Origin: Pontibacter actiniarum
GTDB taxonomy: Bacteria > Bacteroidota > Bacteroidia > Cytophagales > Hymenobacteraceae
Direction: 5' to 3'
Assembly: GCF_003585765.1 (NCBI RefSeq)
Contig: NZ_CP021235.1
Location: 3,472,001 to 3,536,000 of the forward strand
Length of the DNA stretch: 64,000 bases
This document shows positions 53,289-63,036 of this stretch, piece by piece (the stretch's first letter is position 1; each line of letters begins with the position of its first letter). Both the position numbers and the translations under genes were made by a program. The notes below the pieces were generated by a model. It saw only the letters and a program-made list of their open reading frames with translations, was not told where the DNA came from and did not search any database.

Positions 53289-53974
53289 AGGAGCTCTGAG
53301 TCTCGAGTGCTGAGTGTTGTAAGAAGACAAATTTGTGAGCTGAAGAAGCAGGGCAAGTATACAATGCCGCTTACCAACTCCCCCACCTGGCGCAAGCGTC
53401 CGCTTGTGCCTCCGACTGCCTCTGTTTATACTTCCCCTGCTGGCGCAAGTCTTCAGACTTGTGACTTATTATGATGTTGAGTTTGTAACTCAACTCGCTT
53501 GTAAAGCCAAACGTGCTACTGCCCTGGCTAAACGTGTACCTTGCTGGCGCAAGCGTCCACTTGTGCCGTTGGCTGCCTCTGTTTTTGCATCTTCAACCTA
53601 GCTATTCTTTCTAGCTCCCGTTCATCCTCCAGCTCCCAAATACCTACTGGTTCACTTTATACTTTGGAGCGCTCATGCCCGCGAGGGCCCGTCTTCCCGC
53701 ATCGCGCTGGGAGCTTTTCCTGCCGGGGGTAGGGGCCCTCTTACTCATGCCTCGGGCTACCTCGCTCGCGCTCGTCACCGGAAAAACTCATATAGGCGCT
53801 CAGCGGAAAGACTGGAAACGATTTCAGTAGCCAAAGCTGACGTGGCTCCTGCAAAGCTTTGTAGGAACAGGTCATGATCTGTCCGCGCGATGCCGCTCGC
53901 AATGAAACGTATACTTGTGCCCCGGCATCACAAATAGGCTGCAGTCTGAGATAATTGTTCCTCAATCCTGCAAA
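53289..53974. other. gene-free region with REP-like palindromes
   Basis: About 690 bases after recG carrying three palindromic repeat units at 53387, 53440 and 53544, and otherwise nothing convincing. Short frames (53404-53601 plus and 53741-54007 minus) consist of the repeats or run into the riboswitch. Confidence 0.5.
53387..53585. repeat. three REP-like palindromic units
   Basis: Each unit starts CTGGCGCAAG and closes with CTTGTG after a short loop (53387-53410, 53440-53465, 53544-53567). Units 1 and 3 continue in parallel into (G/C)CTGCCTCTGTTT, so roughly 40 bases are directly repeated. Each can fold into a hairpin. Confidence 0.75.
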
Positions 53975-54160
53975 ACCATTACCTTTACAGCGTTTGCGGT
54001 GCCTCACCCTTGCTTGGTGTAGGTTTAAAAAGGAACCGTGTGTGAATCACGGGCTGACGCGCAACTGTAAGTAACGCTGATTTGCTGCCACATAAGCCCA
54101 TTGTCCGGGAGAAGGATGAGAAGGGCGGCAGCAAGGTTACAAGCCAGGATACTTGCCACA
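53975..54160 (+). ncRNA. cobalamin (adenosylcobalamin-type) riboswitch
   Basis: Key conserved blocks are in order: GGTGCC (53998), AAAAAGGAACCG (54027), GTGAATCACGGGCTG, the invariant GCGCAACTGTAA (54059), AAGCCC, CCGGGAGAAGG, and the closing AGCCAGGATACTTGCC (54142-54157). This is the B12-box layout of cobalamin riboswitches, which block translation of B12 uptake or synthesis genes when B12 is present. The expected btuB-like receptor is absent: the next 240 bases hold only short frames broken by stops, then a thioesterase. The start is approximate. Confidence 0.88.
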
Positions 54161-54407
54161 AACATCATAAACGCATGCTTTCGCGCCTAAAGCCTGTGGT
54201 CTGGGTAGTATAAACCTGCCGTAGCACTATTGCTGACGGCCCTGCTGTACTCCTGCTCCACCGCCTCTTTGTGCAGGCATGCCATACATAAACCATGTGC
54301 CATGCCGCAACCTAATCACAGTTGTACTTTATGCTGCCACCACAGCCCCGGCTGCCAGTCTGCTGCACCAGCGCATGCTATACTTCAGCAAATCAAAACG
54401 TATACTT
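54161..54407 (+). pseudogene. possible remnant of riboswitch-controlled gene
   Basis: An ATG at 54175 directs 12 codons (MLSRLKPVVWVV) before a stop. A second frame then reads AVALLLTALLYSC, a lipoprotein-like signal. The two pieces look like the broken start of an exported protein behind the riboswitch. No longer homology is visible. Low confidence. Confidence 0.25.
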
Positions 54408-54809
54408 ATGAACTTACAAGAACGTATTGCCCAGTCCGAAACCCGCATCTTTAAAGCTGTTTTCCCGAACACCACCAATCACTACGACACCCTCTTTGGC
54501 GGCACCGCCATGCAATTGATGGACGAAGTGGCCTTTATCACAGCCACCCGCTTCTGCCGCAAAAGGGTCGTTACCGTGTCCTCAGACCGAATAGATTTTA
54601 CGCAACCTATACCTGCAGGCACTATCGTGGAGCTAATCGGGCAGGTAACAAGCGTGGGCAACACCAGCTTAAAGGTACAGGTAGATATTTATGTAGAGGA
54701 GATGTATTCTGACACACGCATGAAAGCCGTTAGCGGCAGCTTCACCTTTGTAGCCATAGACGAGCACAAGCAGCCGGTTCAGGTCCTGGCCAAGGAGGCG
54801 CAAGCGTAA
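54408..54809 (+). CDS. acyl-CoA thioesterase, hotdog fold (YciA-like)
   Basis: A 133-residue hotdog-fold thioesterase that hydrolyses acyl-CoA. NHYDTLFGGTAMQLMDEVAFITATRF is the central helix with the conserved Gly-Gly and catalytic Asp (about 23-48), followed by the VVTVSSDRIDFTQPIPAGTIVELIG strands. ATG at 54408 starts at MNLQERIAQSETR; the extension to 54279 is not protein-like. It lies behind an orphan cobalamin riboswitch, 250 bases away, but a link to B12 control is doubtful. Confidence 0.85.
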   Translation: MNLQERIAQSETRIFKAVFPNTTNHYDTLFGGTAMQLMDEVAFITATRFCRKRVVTVSSDRIDFTQPIPAGTIVELIGQVTSVGNTSLKVQVDIYVEEMYSDTRMKAVSGSFTFVAIDEHKQPVQVLAKEAQA

Positions 54810-55567
54810 GGCATCACCAACCCCACGCTCTGTCTCGGGCTTGTTTACACCCCAAGTTCCACGAGAAACAATAGCCGCGGCCTAATACTGCGGCTATTTA
54901 TACTTTCTCCCTTTACGAAAGCTGGTTTTCTATCAAAACGTAGTATATTCAGTAGTCCCGTGACGGTTAGCTGCCACAGCGACAAGAAGGGCAGAGTTTA
55001 GATGATACTGTCTCCGTTAAACTTCAGACAAAGATGTTTGCAAAGCAGCTAAACAATACTTTTCAGGGCCTTTGGTAGTATAAACAAAGCCTAACTTTAC
55101 TCCCGCGCCAAAACCTCTACTCTACTGTCTGAAAAGGAAGTACGGCTTTACCAAATAACTCCTTTACAGGCGCCGCAGCTATACGAGGCTTTAATTATAG
55201 GAATTCATAAAGATAATTGCCCTGGGTTTACCCCTTCTGTCTTGCCTTACACGCTTTCTGTACTACCACAGAACTGAAAGCCTTTGTAAAAAGGATGAAG
55301 AAGAAAGCCGGGCAACAGGAGTTAGAGTTACAGCCAACGGCAAAGAGACGCTGTTAAAGGGAGGCTTGAAGTCGAAAAGAGGAAGCTTAATTAGGCTGGA
55401 CGATGAGAGTGACAGGATAGGAAATAGGGCTGATGAAAAACAAACCCATCTCACCACCTACCTAGTATAGTATTTGGCTGCGCCATACCCACATCAGGCA
55501 CAAGCCGTACTGTTAAACAATTAACACCTTGTGCCACCGTTTATCATTAATAAACTTTGTATTTACC
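54810..55567. other. gene-poor region
   Basis: 758 bases. One open frame, 55201-55470 (plus), reads KIIALGLPLLSC, a lipoprotein-like signal, followed by a charged 70-residue tail, but it has no ATG, GTG or TTG start. It could be a remnant or use a rare ATA start. The opposite-strand frame 55263-55457 overlaps it and is less likely. Nothing else is seen. Confidence 0.35.
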
Positions 55568-57175: not shown

Positions 57176-58966
57176 TTAATACACGTACTCGTTTGCCTCG
57201 ATCAGCGTAGCGGCGATGCGACGGCGTGCCTCTTTTGCGTTGAAGAGGTCTTTCTTCGTGAAGCGCTTCAGGCCCATGAACAACAGGCGCTGCTCATCAC
57301 CTTCTGCCATGGCAGCTATGGCCTCTTTACCAGCTTTGAAAGAAGTGTCAACGGCATCGTTTACTACTACGCGTACAATGTCGATCTCATTAGACACGGC
57401 TTCCTCGCCTTTCATACCTACCTGCTTCTCTACGCGCAGCAGCGTTGATTCTGCCACATACGTTTTGATAGCCATGTCAGCGATGTTCATCAGGATTTCC
57501 TGCTCTTTGGCCAGCGAGTTCATATACTTCTGCACTGCTGTACCGGCCACCATCAGAATTGCTTTCTTCAGGTTCTTGATCGCCTTGTGCTCAGCTGTGA
57601 ACAAGCCTTCCTCCTCTTCACCAAAGTCCGGAATAGCCATCAGCTCCTGCTGCACTGCCTGGGCAGGGCCCATCAGGTCAAGCTCGCCTTTCATGGCTTT
57701 TTTCAGGATCATGTCTACCGTCAGCATACGGTTGATCTCGTTGGTACCTTCGAAGATGCGGTTGATACGGGAGTCGCGGTACGCACGGTCCATTGGGTAG
57801 TCGGCAGAGAAGCCGTAGCCACCGTAGATCTGCACTCCTTCGTCTGCCACATAATCCAGCACCTCAGAGCCCTCTACCTTCAGCATGGCGCATTCTACGG
57901 CAAACTCGCGGGCAGCACCAAGCAGCGCCTCATTCTCGTTTGCACCGCCAGCCATCAGTTCCTGCTCTTTGCGGTAGATATCCATACCCGCACGGTAAAT
58001 CGCAGACTCTACTGCATAAATGCGGATTGCCTGCTCAGCCAGTTTATACTTAATGGCACCGAACTTGGCGATAGGCAGTTTAAACTGGTGGCGCTCATTT
58101 GCATACTTCACCGACAGGTCTGCCACTTTCTTAGCGGCACCCAGTGTAGCAGCACCCAGCTTGATACGGCCAATGTTCAGGATGTTAAAGGCAATCAGGT
58201 GGCCTTTTCCGATCTCACCCAGCACATTTTCTTTCGGCACTTCGCAGTCTTCGAAGAACACCTGGCGGGTAGAGGAGCCTCTGATACCCATTTTGTGCTC
58301 TTCGTTGCCCAGGCTCACGCCTTTAAAGCCACGCTCTACGATAAAGCCTGTAAACTTGTCACCGTCTATCTGCGCAAACACCACAAACACATCAGCAAAG
58401 CCAGCGTTCGTGATCCACATTTTCTGGCCGTTCAGGATGTAGTGTGTACCTGCCTCGTTCAGAACAGCTTTGGTCTTGGCAGCCAACGCATCAGAACCAG
58501 AGCCTGGCTCCGTTAAGCAGTAAGCTGACATCCACTCGCCGCTAACCAGCTTTGGAATATACTTTTGCTTCTGCTCTTCTGTACCGAAGTATAAAATTGG
58601 AAGTGTACCGATACCCGTATGCGCTGCAAAAGCAACCGGGAACGAGTGGCCACCACCTACTGATTCTGTTACCAGCAGCGACGTGTTAAAGTCCATGTTC
58701 AGGCCGCCGTACTGCTCAGGAGCAGACACCGCGAACAAGCCCAGCTCACCTGCTTTCTTCATCAGGTTCTCCATCAGGCCCTCTTCGTGGTTATCGAGGC
58801 GCTCCAGCAGCGGAGATACTTCTTCGCGCACAAAATCCTTACAGGTTTGCGCCATCATCAGCTGCTCTTCATTAAATTCTGCAGGTATAAATACGTCCTG
58901 CGGGTTTGTTTCCTTTATCAGGAATTCACCACCTTGGATGGTAGCGTTTTGAGTTGATTTTTCCAT
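57176..58966 (-). CDS. fadE: acyl-CoA dehydrogenase, long-chain
   Basis: A 596-residue FAD enzyme for the first oxidation of fatty-acid beta-oxidation. Visible motifs are the YCLTEPGSGSDA and WITNAGFAD FAD-binding signatures (about 147-195), R-x-IFEGTNEINRM with the catalytic-loop Glu near 410, and an extra C-terminal domain of about 150 residues, as in the VLCAD/ACAD9 and Bacillus FadE group. Symbol given by position: with fadN and fadA it forms the same set as the Bacillus fadNAE operon. The 4HB cassette at 59026 separates it from fadA. Confidence 0.9.
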   Translation of the reverse strand: MEKSTQNATIQGGEFLIKETNPQDVFIPAEFNEEQLMMAQTCKDFVREEVSPLLERLDNHEEGLMENLMKKAGELGLFAVSAPEQYGGLNMDFNTSLLVTESVGGGHSFPVAFAAHTGIGTLPILYFGTEEQKQKYIPKLVSGEWMSAYCLTEPGSGSDALAAKTKAVLNEAGTHYILNGQKMWITNAGFADVFVVFAQIDGDKFTGFIVERGFKGVSLGNEEHKMGIRGSSTRQVFFEDCEVPKENVLGEIGKGHLIAFNILNIGRIKLGAATLGAAKKVADLSVKYANERHQFKLPIAKFGAIKYKLAEQAIRIYAVESAIYRAGMDIYRKEQELMAGGANENEALLGAAREFAVECAMLKVEGSEVLDYVADEGVQIYGGYGFSADYPMDRAYRDSRINRIFEGTNEINRMLTVDMILKKAMKGELDLMGPAQAVQQELMAIPDFGEEEEGLFTAEHKAIKNLKKAILMVAGTAVQKYMNSLAKEQEILMNIADMAIKTYVAESTLLRVEKQVGMKGEEAVSNEIDIVRVVVNDAVDTSFKAGKEAIAAMAEGDEQRLLFMGLKRFTKKDLFNAKEARRRIAATLIEANEYVY

Positions 58967-58986
58967 TGCTATTGTCTTTTATCTTT

Positions 58987-59020
58987 TAGACACAAGACGT
59001 AAGACCCAAGACACAAGACT
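58987..59020. repeat. left flank repeat of four-helix-bundle cassette
   Basis: Begins TAGACACAAGAC and ends AAGACACAAGACT. It is an imperfect inverted copy of the repeat at 59394-59425. Confidence 0.7.
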
Positions 59021-59025
59021 TGCTC

Positions 59026-59385
59026 TTATTCTCGCTTATTTAGTTTTTTCTTAAATCCATCAATCATTCTCTGAATCTTCCGGAGTTGCGTTAGTAGCTC
59101 ATTTAGCTTGTCTTCATTTATGAATCCGAAAGCTTGAGCCAAGAGCAACTGGGTTTCTAACTCAAAAGCTGACCCCAACGCAATATTCAGAAACTGATTA
59201 AACTCTTTATCAGAACCTCTTCCTGCTCCCTCTGCAATATTTGAGGGAACTGACACAGCAGACCTGTTTATTTGAGAAGTAAGACCGAACTTTTCATTTG
59301 CAGGAAATGAGGAAGAAGCTTTGTATACTGCTTTCGCTAACTCCATTGCCTCTTTCCAAATAATCAATTCCTTAAAATTGTGCAT
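59026..59385 (-). CDS. four helix bundle protein (S23/IVS-type)
   Basis: A 119-residue protein of the 23S rRNA intervening-sequence (S23) four-helix-bundle family. Hallmarks are [18 protein letters not shown], the loop [19 protein letters not shown] and the [20 protein letters not shown] helix. Relatives are encoded in rRNA inserts or beside retroelements (Avd) and many stand alone; function is unclear. I use the ATG at 59385, where the domain starts; the frame from 59439 includes repeat sequence. It interrupts fadA and fadE and is flanked by inverted repeats, so it looks like an inserted cassette. Confidence 0.85.
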
Positions 59386-59393
59386 TAGAAAAA

Positions 59394-59425
59394 TCTTGTG
59401 TCTTACATCCTGTGTCCTGTGTCTA
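59394..59425. repeat. right flank repeat of four-helix-bundle cassette
   Basis: Imperfect inverted copy of 58987-59020. Read on the minus strand it begins TAGACACAGGAC, its TAG being the stop codon of fadA, and ends AAGACACAAGA. Confidence 0.7.
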
Positions 59426-60601
59426 TTTAAGAAGTTCAAACACCCCAGCTACACCTTGGCCGCCGCCTACGCAGGCAGTTACGATGCCGTGCTTGCCGCC
59501 GGTGCGACGCAGGTCGCTGAAAAGCTGCACGGCTAGTTTGGCACCAGAGCAGCCCAGCGGGTGGCCAAGTGCGATGGCACCACCGTTGATGTTCAGCTTA
59601 TCCGGGTTGAAGTCCAGCTCACGCATCACAGCGATAGACTGTGCGGCAAAGGCCTCGTTCATCTCGATCAGGTCGATGTCGTTCAGCGTTAAACCCGCTT
59701 GCTTCAGCGCCTTTGGAACGGCTGCGATTGGGCCCATGCCCATAATGCGTGGGTCTACACCGCCGGTGCCGTAGCTTACCAGGCGCGCAATTGGCTCCAG
59801 GTTCAGCTCTTTTACCATGCGCTCGCTCATCACAACCACAAAAGCAGCACCGTCTGATGTCTGAGAGGAGTTACCGGCTGTTACCGTACCACCTGCTGCA
59901 AACACCGGCTTCAGTTTCGCCAAACGCTCCAGCGAGGTATCGGCACGAGGGCCTTCGTCCGTATCCACTACATACGTGCGGGTCTTCTTCTTGCCGTTAT
60001 CGTCCAGGTAAGTTTCCTCAACCGTAATCGGCACGATCTGATCTTTGAAGTAGCCTTTCTCGATGGCGTTCAGTGCCTTTTGGTGCGATTTGAAGGCAAA
60101 CTCATCCTGGTCTTCACGTGAAACATTGTAGTCGTTGGCTACGGCTTCGGCCGTTAGGCCCATGCTCAGGTACCAGTCAGGGTTCTCTTTTGCAATTTTG
60201 TAGTTTGGCGCTGTTTTCCAGCCAGCCGTTGGCACCATCGACATCGATTCAGTACCACCAGCCACGATACAGTCGGCCATGCCTGCTGCAATGCGGTTGG
60301 CAGCAATGGCAATGGTTTCTACACCGGAACCGCAGTAGCGGTTAACCGTCATACCGCTTACCGACATTGGCAGCGCCAGCAGCGAAATCATGCGGCCAAT
60401 CTGCAGGCCTTGCTCTGCTTCCGGCACAGCGTTACCGACAATCAGGTCGTCTACGCGCTCCGGGTCCAGGGCAGGCACAGAGGCCATTAAGTGTTTGATG
60501 ACATCAGCGGCCAGGTCATCAGGTCTGGTGAACCGGAATACGCCACGCCCAGCTTTACCCACTGCGCTACGAAATCCGGCTACGATATATGCATTGTTCA
60601 T
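59423..60601 (-). CDS. fadA: acetyl-CoA C-acyltransferase (thiolase)
   Basis: A 392-residue thiolase that cleaves 3-ketoacyl-CoA in the last step of beta-oxidation. The nucleophile Cys90 is in NRYCGSG, His347 in [12 protein letters not shown] and the second Cys377 in ACVGGGQG. Length and spacing are normal. It lies 32 bases after fadN and is followed by the four-helix-bundle cassette and fadE. Its stop codon lies within one flank repeat of that cassette, so the insertion may have replaced the original 3' end without harming the protein. Confidence 0.95.
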
Positions 60602-60633
60602 TTTGATGCTCTTTTATAGTTTATACTATAGAA

Positions 60634-63036
60634 TTAGTTTCTCAGCGGCTTGCCTGTAGTCAGGATGCTCTGGATGCGCTCCAGTGTCTTGCGCTCACCT
60701 GTCAACGACAGGAACGCCTCACGCTCCAGGTCCAGCAGGTACTGCTCGCTCACCTCCGTTGGGGCAGACAAATCACCGCCGCACATCACGTAAGCCAGTT
60801 TCTGAGATATCTTCAGGTCATGGGCAGACATATAGCGGCCCGTAAACATGGCGTTCGCACCTGTCAGGAACATACCTAGTGCACCTTTACCCTGCACCTT
60901 CACGTTGGTGCGCTGCACTGGCTTCGTGTAACCCGCATCAGCCATAAGTATAGCCTGTGCCTTGGCATCGGCTATCAAACGGTTGCTGTTGATCGTGATG
61001 CCGTCGCTCTTGCGCATATAGCCTAAGTCTACTGCCTCTTTAGCTGAAGTAGAAACCTTAGCCATACCAATGTTCAGGAACACGTTCTTCAGGTCGTTGT
61101 ACTCAATGTCGCCGTCGGCATACATATCGGCTGCACGAAGCGTCATCTCTTTTGTACCGCCACCGCCTGGTATCAGGCCTACACCAAACTCTACCAAGCC
61201 CATGTAAGTCTCGGCAGATGCCTGGATGTGGTCGCAATGCAGGTTCAGCTCACAGCCGCCGCCCAGGGTAAGGCCATGCGGAGCACCTACTACCGGTATA
61301 CCCGAATAGCGCATGCGCATCATGGTGTTCTGGAACTGGCGGATGATCATGTTCAGCTCATCGTAATCCTGATCCAGCGCATACATGTAGATAAGGCCAA
61401 CGTTGGCTCCGGCAGAGAAATTAGCGGCATCGTTGCCCACTACCATGCCACGGAAATCTTTCTCAGCGAGATCAATACCTTTGTTCAGGGCCATGATCAC
61501 ATCGCCGCCAATAGTATTCATCTTGGTATGGAACTCCACGTTCAGGATACCGTCACCTAAGTCAATAAGGGAGGCTCCGCTGTTTTTCCAGACAACCTTG
61601 TTCTCACGCAGGTTGTTGAGGATGATAAAGTTCTCGGCACCTGGTATGGCTTTGTATTCTTTTGTGTTGATGTCGTAGTAGCGGCGTGTGCCGTTTTCTA
61701 CGATGTAGAAGGACTCCTTGCCATTGTTCAGCATTTCTTCCACCCAGGCAGCAGGCTTATAGCCGGCTTCTGTCATACGCTGCACACCTTCGCGGGCACC
61801 GATGGCATCCCAGTACTCAAACGGACCAAGCTCCCAGCCAAAGCCGGCACGCAGGGCATCGTCGATGCGGTACAGTTCATCGGAGATTTCCGGAATACGG
61901 TTAGAAACGTACTGGAACAGGCCGAACAGCGTCTCGTTGAAGAACTGTGCTGCCTTATCAGACTGGCCGGAGAAAACTTTGATGCGCTTCTTCAGATCAT
62001 CGATTGGCTTCAGCACCTCCAGGCTCTGGAACTTCACCTTCTGCTTCGGCCCGTACTCCATCGTGTTCAGGTCCAGCGTCAGTATCTCGGTTTTGCCTTT
62101 GGCGTCTTTGGTCTTTTTGTAGAAGCCCTGGCCGGTTTTATCACCCAGCCACTTGTTCTCCACCATCTGCTGCACATAGCCCGGAATCTGGAACAGGTCG
62201 CGCGACTCATCGTTCTCGCCGGACTGGTACAAGCCGTTGGCTACATTTACAGTGGTATCCAGACCAACTACGTCCAGCGTGCGGAACGTGGCAGACTTCG
62301 GACGACCAACAATAGGACCCGTGATTTTATCCACTTCATCTATGGTCAGACCTGTTTTCTCCATAGCCTTCAGCGTCTGCATGATGCCATAGATACCCAC
62401 ACGGTTTGCGATAAAGGCAGGCGTATCTTTTGCTAATACGGTAGTCTTACCCAAGTATAAATCACCGTAGTGCATCAGGAAGTCTACTACCTCACTGTCT
62501 GTCTCTGGTGTAGGTATAATCTCCAGCAGTTTCAGGTAGCGCGGCGGGTTAAAGAAGTGCGTACCGCAGAAGTGCTTCTTAAAATCGTCGGAGCGACCTT
62601 CCAGCATCAGGTGGATTGGAATGCCCGATGTATTAGAGGAAATAAGTGTACCCGGCTTGCGGTGTTGCTCCACCTGGTCGTACACGATTTTCTTTACTTT
62701 CAGATTCTCCACTACCACCTCAATGGTCCAGTCGGCGGTGGCGATGTCCTTCATATCATCTTCGAAGTTACCTGTTGTGATCAGGCTTGCATCGGACTTG
62801 CGGTAAAGCGGCGACGGGTTGGAGTTAATAGCTGCCTGCAGGTGCCCGTTTACCAGGCGGTTGCGTACGGCTTTGCTTTCCAGCGTCAGGCCTTTTTTCT
62901 CTTCGTCAGGTGTTAGCTCTTTCGGCACGATGTCGAGCAGCAGCACCTGCACCCCGATATTAGCAAAGTGACAGGCAATTCTGGAGCCCATCACTCCGGA
63001 GCCTAGCACCGCTACTTTCTTAATTATTCTTTTCAT
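60634..63036 (-). CDS. fadN: 3-hydroxyacyl-CoA dehydrogenase / enoyl-CoA hydratase, FadN-type
   Basis: An 800-residue bifunctional enzyme. In FadN the order is dehydrogenase first and hydratase last, opposite to E. coli FadB, and that is seen here: the NAD-binding VAVLGSGVMGSRIA at 8-21, dehydrogenase motif GTHFFNPPRYLKLLEI near 158-173, then the crotonase domain with NFSAGANV (about 540), GGGCELNLHCDHI and FGVGLIPGGGGT (about 608-643) carrying the two Glu residues. It directly follows the marR gene (24-base gap), making it the first enzyme gene of the operon. Confidence 0.93.
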   Translation of the reverse strand: MKRIIKKVAVLGSGVMGSRIACHFANIGVQVLLLDIVPKELTPDEEKKGLTLESKAVRNRLVNGHLQAAINSNPSPLYRKSDASLITTGNFEDDMKDIATADWTIEVVVENLKVKKIVYDQVEQHRKPGTLISSNTSGIPIHLMLEGRSDDFKKHFCGTHFFNPPRYLKLLEIIPTPETDSEVVDFLMHYGDLYLGKTTVLAKDTPAFIANRVGIYGIMQTLKAMEKTGLTIDEVDKITGPIVGRPKSATFRTLDVVGLDTTVNVANGLYQSGENDESRDLFQIPGYVQQMVENKWLGDKTGQGFYKKTKDAKGKTEILTLDLNTMEYGPKQKVKFQSLEVLKPIDDLKKRIKVFSGQSDKAAQFFNETLFGLFQYVSNRIPEISDELYRIDDALRAGFGWELGPFEYWDAIGAREGVQRMTEAGYKPAAWVEEMLNNGKESFYIVENGTRRYYDINTKEYKAIPGAENFIILNNLRENKVVWKNSGASLIDLGDGILNVEFHTKMNTIGGDVIMALNKGIDLAEKDFRGMVVGNDAANFSAGANVGLIYMYALDQDYDELNMIIRQFQNTMMRMRYSGIPVVGAPHGLTLGGGCELNLHCDHIQASAETYMGLVEFGVGLIPGGGGTKEMTLRAADMYADGDIEYNDLKNVFLNIGMAKVSTSAKEAVDLGYMRKSDGITINSNRLIADAKAQAILMADAGYTKPVQRTNVKVQGKGALGMFLTGANAMFTGRYMSAHDLKISQKLAYVMCGGDLSAPTEVSEQYLLDLEREAFLSLTGERKTLERIQSILTTGKPLRN

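Follow-up and report, generated by a model that had tools for sequence, protein, structure and literature searches.

A cobalamin riboswitch linked to a YciA-like acyl-CoA thioesterase gene in Pontibacter actiniarum and other Bacteroidota

The riboswitch and the thioesterase gene of P. actiniarum

We have analyzed a window of 64,000 nucleotides (64 kb) of the Pontibacter actiniarum genome, in which cmscan, run at gathering thresholds, returned a single RNA family match. This was the cobalamin riboswitch aptamer (RF00174), located at 53980-54174 on the forward strand, as are the other features of the locus unless stated, and aligned with 11 Pontibacter relatives. The match covered the full length of the model (1-189 of 189), its score of 84.8 bits (gathering score, 31.5) corresponding to an E value of 1.8e-19. 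The ACGCGCAACTGTAA element (54057-54070) and the B12 box (AAGCCAGGATACTTGCC, 54141-54157) were both intact, the latter being near-invariant across the Pontibacter alignment. These data agreed with an earlier note on this DNA, which had recognized all conserved B12 elements and proposed a covariance-model search; the boundaries it gave (53975-54407) were right to within a few bases, with the aptamer starting at 53980 and not at 53975. The RF00174 aptamer is predicted to bind a corrinoid and to repress the downstream gene.

The aptamer starts 692 bases past the recG stop codon (53288). Between recG and the riboswitch, a 24-base element (CTGGCGCAAGCGTCCRCTTGTGCC) was present in two copies (53387-53410 and 53544-53567), both lying within 48-base repeats, with none expected by chance and no further copy in the window.

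A second RF00174 aptamer was found in the same genome (C1:4451104-4451312), upstream of genes for a TonB receptor and a DUF5074 protein. This B12-uptake-like unit has its own riboswitch, so that the one in the window is the second of two in the genome. No gene of this uptake-like kind follows 53980-54174.

The aptamer ends 233 bases ahead of the ATG of a gene (54408-54809) encoding a 133-residue hotdog-fold acyl-CoA thioesterase, the probable regulated gene. The protein matched the Pfam model of the 4HBT superfamily (PF03061) with 65.3 bits (gathering score of 20.6). With the YciA equivalog model NF007970 it scored 58.3 bits, below the cut-off of 162; hence we describe it as YciA-like and do not class it as YciA. 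Its relatives of solved structure were 2gvh, 2eis, ACOT7 and HI0827. Residues N24 and D39, which we take to be the catalytic positions of the 4HBT superfamily, were invariant among 10 aligned proteins, and an AlphaFold2 model reached a pLDDT of 83.8, being weak at residues 21-26, near N24. The sequence suggests that the 133-residue protein probably cleaves acyl-CoA. It shares the 4HBT domain and is related in sequence to the YciA/ACOT7-type hotdog thioesterases (HI0827, mouse and human ACOT7, TTHB207), from which it differs by falling below the YciA cut-off and by its position downstream of a B12 riboswitch in many genomes.

A terminator-like hairpin of 11 pairs followed by a T-rich tail (54870-54898) suggests that the thioesterase is a single-gene unit, although the hairpin is weak evidence alone, since our scan found five such sites against a mean of 2.3 in shuffles. 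The window also contains genes of fatty-acid beta-oxidation (57176-63036), of the acyl-CoA dehydrogenase, thiolase and FadB-like types, which are located 2.4 kb away from the thioesterase and run on the opposite strand.

The leader between aptamer and thioesterase

The earlier note had described only broken frames in this stretch, followed by a thioesterase. Open reading frames (ORFs) of at least 20 aa in the 233 bases were indeed short and overlapping, except for the thioesterase frame itself, which extends in frame upstream to 54279. The possibility that the true start lies within the P13-like hairpin described below was discarded, as the upstream frame was open for 1 to 80 codons, with no pattern, at 13 Pontibacter loci.

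Immediately after the aptamer, a P13-like hairpin (54177-54193) is formed by the arms GCTTT and AAAGC around the loop CGCGCCT, about 220 nt ahead of the thioesterase start codon. The CGCG of this L13 loop (54182-54185) is matched by a CGCG in L5 (54058-54061), its proposed partner, and L5-L13 kissing loops are reported for the cobalamin riboswitch class (PMC9600662). The remaining leader (54194-54407) was poorly conserved in the Pontibacter alignment.

We have then examined 90 leaders, from the directly linked riboswitch-thioesterase loci that a two-part motif search (see below) detected in Pontibacter and other genera of its family. The L5 CGCG was present in all 90. Each of them also had a CGCG-loop hairpin of at least four pairs no further than 70 nt from the B12 box; the 70 nt that follow contained such a hairpin in 24 of the 90, and in Markov shuffles its frequency was 27.8%. 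The hairpin arms took 39 different paired forms, a count uncorrected for kinship that points to selection on the P13 pairing. At the sequence level, both partners of the kissing loop are in place in the window and in 90/90 leaders, and the L13 loop could kiss L5.

Intrinsic terminators were not enriched in these leaders (4/90 versus 10.9% of shuffles), so that an intrinsic-terminator platform was unsupported and a translational or Rho-dependent read-out seems more likely. For the cobalamin riboswitches of Chlorobi, an action mainly on translation is reported (PMC8620254). Rho loading through a C-rich leader was considered, as C exceeded G in Pontibacter (0.31 versus 0.17), but the idea does not generalize, since the leaders of other genera were not C-rich over G (0.295 versus 0.347). 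A helix pairing a GCATGC of P13 with a second GCATGC further downstream, spotted by eye in several Pontibacter leaders, was missing from others and was dropped.

Linkage of riboswitch and thioesterase in Pontibacter and its family

At least one RF00174 match was detected in each of 50 Pontibacter genomes, and the thioesterase in 21 of them (E of 1e-30 or better). A B12 aptamer lay directly upstream of the gene at 13 of these 21 loci, 12 of which had the order recG-aptamer-thioesterase, the remaining one (G005) having no recG nearby. For the other eight, cmscan (E up to 0.1) found no B12 aptamer in the fetched stretch. In G001, G036 and G047, a recG-like frame stopped some 57 to 131 bases short of the thioesterase, with no riboswitch between. 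Two Pontibacter genomes, G037 (locus L042) and G029 (locus L050), carried metE behind their second aptamer and had the thioesterase elsewhere, with no riboswitch detected at it.

The family set comprised 200 genomes, 107 of which had a thioesterase gene; 86 lay outside Pontibacter, and all 86 loci were examined with a two-part aptamer motif that combines the CGCAACTGTAA element with the B12 box and tolerates mismatches. An aptamer was found upstream at 81 of the 86 loci, directly at 78 of them, 77 being detected by the motif less than 400 nt upstream and one (L117) by cmscan. Two loci (L155, L165) showed the order riboswitch-metE-thioesterase, and at L168 the upstream aptamer was 962 nt away, the interval containing no clear gene. 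Neither motif nor cmscan gave an aptamer in the fetched stretch of the other 5/86. As a control of orientation, all 80 occurrences of the motif across the 86 loci were upstream and on the same strand as the gene, with 0 downstream or on the other strand.

Linkage in the order and beyond

Within the order, 105 of 291 genomes had a thioesterase gene (E of 1e-25 or better). We have studied the best 60 of 81 places outside the family, leaving out the 21 with the lowest scores, and a same-strand upstream aptamer was present at 32 of the 60. At two of these the linkage was direct and at one the aptamer lay 758 nt upstream; 19 had metE in between and eight a TonB-receptor-sized gene (Pfam-checked for L179, L216 and L228, judged from N-terminus and length for the rest). 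The last two had three genes in between, namely a TonB receptor, a DUF5074 protein and a periplasmic binding protein at L188, and three others at L219. The gap from metE to the thioesterase was 10 to 911 nt (19 order and two family loci). It held no ORF of at least 60 aa at 11 of the 19 order loci and at both family loci; at 8/19 it contained small ORFs, so that a single transcript is not assured there. The fetched stretches of the other 28/60 loci had no aptamer, cmscan being negative as well, and two of the loci where none was found (L201, L203) had metE upstream of the thioesterase nonetheless.

In a further set of 80 named loci, which partly overlaps with the genomes of the genus, family and order sets, an upstream aptamer was found at 56, at 48 by the motif and at eight more by cmscan (L246, L250, L253, L261, L274, L293, L299 and L316), with L261 (33.0 bits) and L293 (39.3 bits) lying near the cut-off of 31.5. 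The fetched stretches of 24/80 had none by either method. Chryseobacterium, from a different family, showed the direct pairing at 15/15 named loci, the B12 box lying 125 to 135 nt ahead of the gene. The metE form was found in Belliella, Pedobacter, Mucilaginibacter and Dyadobacter, and at L260, L265 and L269 metE was separated from the thioesterase by a further gene, of about 335 to 350 aa. One metagenome-assembled genome (MAG; L255, 715-4500) had riboswitch, NrdB, NrdA and thioesterase in a row, an arrangement seen only once. In a Flavobacteriia MAG (L246), the aptamer preceding the thioesterase by 103 nt belonged to the other B12 family, RF01482 (4259-4397, 56.5 bits). Under the title Glaciecola amylolytica (L258), which we take to be a gammaproteobacterial name, one record contained a thioesterase of 77% identity that was preceded by an aptamer at a distance of 464 nt, reflecting either horizontal transfer or a mislabelled record.

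When motif-called aptamers (random or odd picks) were subjected to cmscan, 20/20 were confirmed; cmscan also detected 11 aptamers that the motif had missed. Taken together, the gene recurs downstream of B12 riboswitches, the location expected in a B12-shortage regulon, at 126 of 167 loci (13/21 in the genus, 81/86 in the family and 32/60 in the order). On a tree of 237 thioesterases the arrangement changed 43 times, compared with about 102 times with shuffled labels, which indicates that it follows kinship yet has changed often; the labels predate the later cmscan aptamers, omit L117, L197 and L200, and include some wrong "none" entries. The thioesterase thus sits behind B12 riboswitches alone, with the B12-independent isozymes metE and nrdBA, or with uptake-type genes, and the common denominator of these companions is B12 shortage. 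Hence, the genomic data strongly support a regulatory link between riboswitch and thioesterase, as an association and not as proof of expression.

Downstream of the thioesterase, no partner was widely shared among 238 loci, the largest group having 10 members. A same-strand ORF of at least 90 aa started within 100 nt at 81/238. A Diphthami_syn_2 (DUF71-like) gene followed about 10 nt after the thioesterase at L187, L196 and L212, the call resting on a Pfam test of the first 90 residues at one of the three. The DUF71-like family is reported to be tied to B12 salvage (PMC3541065).

B12-dependent mutases and the proposed role of the thioesterase

Two paired PF01642 proteins of 718 and 618 aa are encoded in the P. 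actiniarum genome, as well as a fused PF01642 protein of 1130 aa; judging by size, we take the pair to be MutB- and MutA-like and the fused protein to be IcmF-like. The genome also encodes a B12-binding protein of 1246 aa, presumably MetH judging by size, and gave no match for MetE. A PF01642 mutase was present in 50/50 Pontibacter genomes. Across the order, such mutases were detected in 94 of 105 genomes with the thioesterase versus 127 of 186 without it (Fisher p of 3e-5, kinship ignored), and in 31 of the 32 riboswitch-linked ones.

We propose, as an explanation that we hold to be slightly more probable than not when taken as a whole, that an OFF switch acts on the thioesterase and that the enzyme relieves the CoA held by stalled mutases. 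The parts differ in strength. That the riboswitch controls the thioesterase is highly probable in our judgment, and that it is an OFF switch is very probable; for the CoA-relief role, the case for and against is evenly balanced. With corrinoid bound, the aptamer would favor the L5-L13 kissing loop and P13, and synthesis of the thioesterase would be prevented; under B12 scarcity, the leader would refold and allow the enzyme to be produced. The thioesterase would then be one of the cell's B12-shortage genes, together with those for B12 uptake and, in relatives, metE or nrdAB. Under such conditions the adenosylcobalamin-dependent mutases (the MutA/B-like pair and the IcmF-like fused protein) would lack their cofactor and acyl-CoAs would pile up. 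By hydrolyzing them, the thioesterase would free CoA while the acid leaves, acting as a safety valve against the build-up of propionyl-, methylmalonyl- or branched acyl-CoA. Such a valve would not be essential to mutase users, since 29/50 Pontibacter genomes have mutases and no thioesterase at the cut-off used. More tentatively, and with a likelihood that we place just under even, the same dedicated thioesterase may serve as a widespread Bacteroidota valve, placed under a B12 riboswitch and releasing the CoA bound in methylmalonyl-, propionyl- or branched acyl-CoA once the mutases stall.

YciA-type enzymes have been placed in related metabolism by engineering. Haemophilus influenzae YciA is reported to raise propionate output about 10-fold in engineered Pseudomonas putida (PMC9399607). 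In cobalt-limited Methylorubrum extorquens, YciA frees acids of the ethylmalonyl-CoA pathway, with its ethylmalonyl-/methylmalonyl-CoA mutases, with the yield rising sixfold when cobalt is low (PMC9529712); being an engineered strain and not a native circuit, it resembles our proposal and is silent on membership. Among riboswitch-controlled systems, the closest are the isozymes metE and class I ribonucleotide reductase, where the same aptamer family controls a gene useful without B12, and in some relatives the thioesterase sits downstream of riboswitch-metE or riboswitch-nrdBA itself. Unlike them, the thioesterase is no isozyme and would dispose of the leftovers of a stalled B12 enzyme. The fatty-acid desaturase ole1, reported under a cobalamin riboswitch in metagenomes (PMC2211319), is likewise lipid-related and involved in neither B12 synthesis nor transport; it is a different enzyme, for which the authors suggest a B12-dependent/B12-independent isozyme pair, which we do not propose here.

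A full-text literature search, run on main texts and with supplementary tables and most subscription papers (early B12-riboswitch surveys too) outside its scope, returned no paper linking a B12 riboswitch with a thioesterase. Both terms occur in PMC8620254, PMC7205611, PMC8216456 and PMC10433868, in unrelated places of the text retrieved, and the word "thioesterase" is absent from the main texts of PMC2211319, PMC3766115 and PMC3541065. The thioesterase as a B12-riboswitch target is thus unreported in searchable papers. If true, our proposal would extend the B12 regulon of a large phylum by a conserved gene, of a kind that neither makes, imports nor replaces B12. It would also provide a bacterial counterpart, under gene regulation, of the acid spill-over that occurs in human methylmalonic aciduria, and it directly suggests a way in which bacteria that require B12 could preserve their coenzyme A pool under B12 shortage.

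Alternative explanations

The main rival keeps the riboswitch in control of the thioesterase and assigns the enzyme a substrate unrelated to the B12-dependent mutases, such as CoA esters of fatty acids or membrane lipids, or one from methionine or corrinoid metabolism. We regard it as a serious possibility, if somewhat on the improbable side. One genome (G439) has kept riboswitch-metE-thioesterase with no PF01642 mutase detected, and a mutase gene beside the thioesterase, considered as a possible neighbor, was found at 0/238 loci. The beta-oxidation cluster about 2.4 kb away on the other strand of the window, the desaturase reported downstream of a B12 riboswitch (PMC2211319) and the Diphthami_syn_2 genes at three loci, of a family linked to B12 salvage (PMC3541065), would fit as well. 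Against it stands the presence of mutases in 31/32 riboswitch-linked order genomes and 50/50 Pontibacter genomes, counts uncorrected for kinship.

The earlier note had called the riboswitch an orphan, and proposed either a relic of a lost B12 transporter gene or an unexpected target such as a short leader peptide. Our results argue for an unexpected target, the thioesterase, and the orphan label does not hold, as this pairing is kept in relatives. A relic that controls nothing and adjoins the thioesterase by chance is highly improbable. It could account for the 233 nt of poorly conserved sequence in between and for the metE or TonB receptor found at that position in relatives, with no metE in this genome. 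The direct pairing is kept at 13/21 Pontibacter and 78/86 other family loci, as well as at all 15 Chryseobacterium loci of another family, and L5 and P13/L13 are kept in 90/90 leaders. In addition, the 90 leaders gave no significant similarity to metE (best E of 0.037 for DNA and 0.53 for protein), so that the relic reading is unsupported. A gene may once have lain between riboswitch and thioesterase somewhere in the past, which is conceivable given that other genomes have riboswitch-metE-thioesterase. An "orphan" riboswitch should therefore be compared with relatives before being called a relic.

Both the relic reading and that of a leader peptide were rejected on the evidence of linkage, the lack of metE remnants and the reading frames. 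Least probable of all is a riboswitch controlling a short peptide with its start inside P13 (MLSR... in Pontibacter). In 9/13 Pontibacter leaders, a frame of 9 to 19 codons does begin at an ATG located 7 nt ahead of the CGCG of L13. Across the 90 leaders, however, no conserved leader peptide was found, as 21 have no ATG preceding the CGCG, the rest have it in three phases (44, 19 and 6), and the frames range from 6 to over 100 codons. Conservation of P13 as RNA can account for the letters in common.
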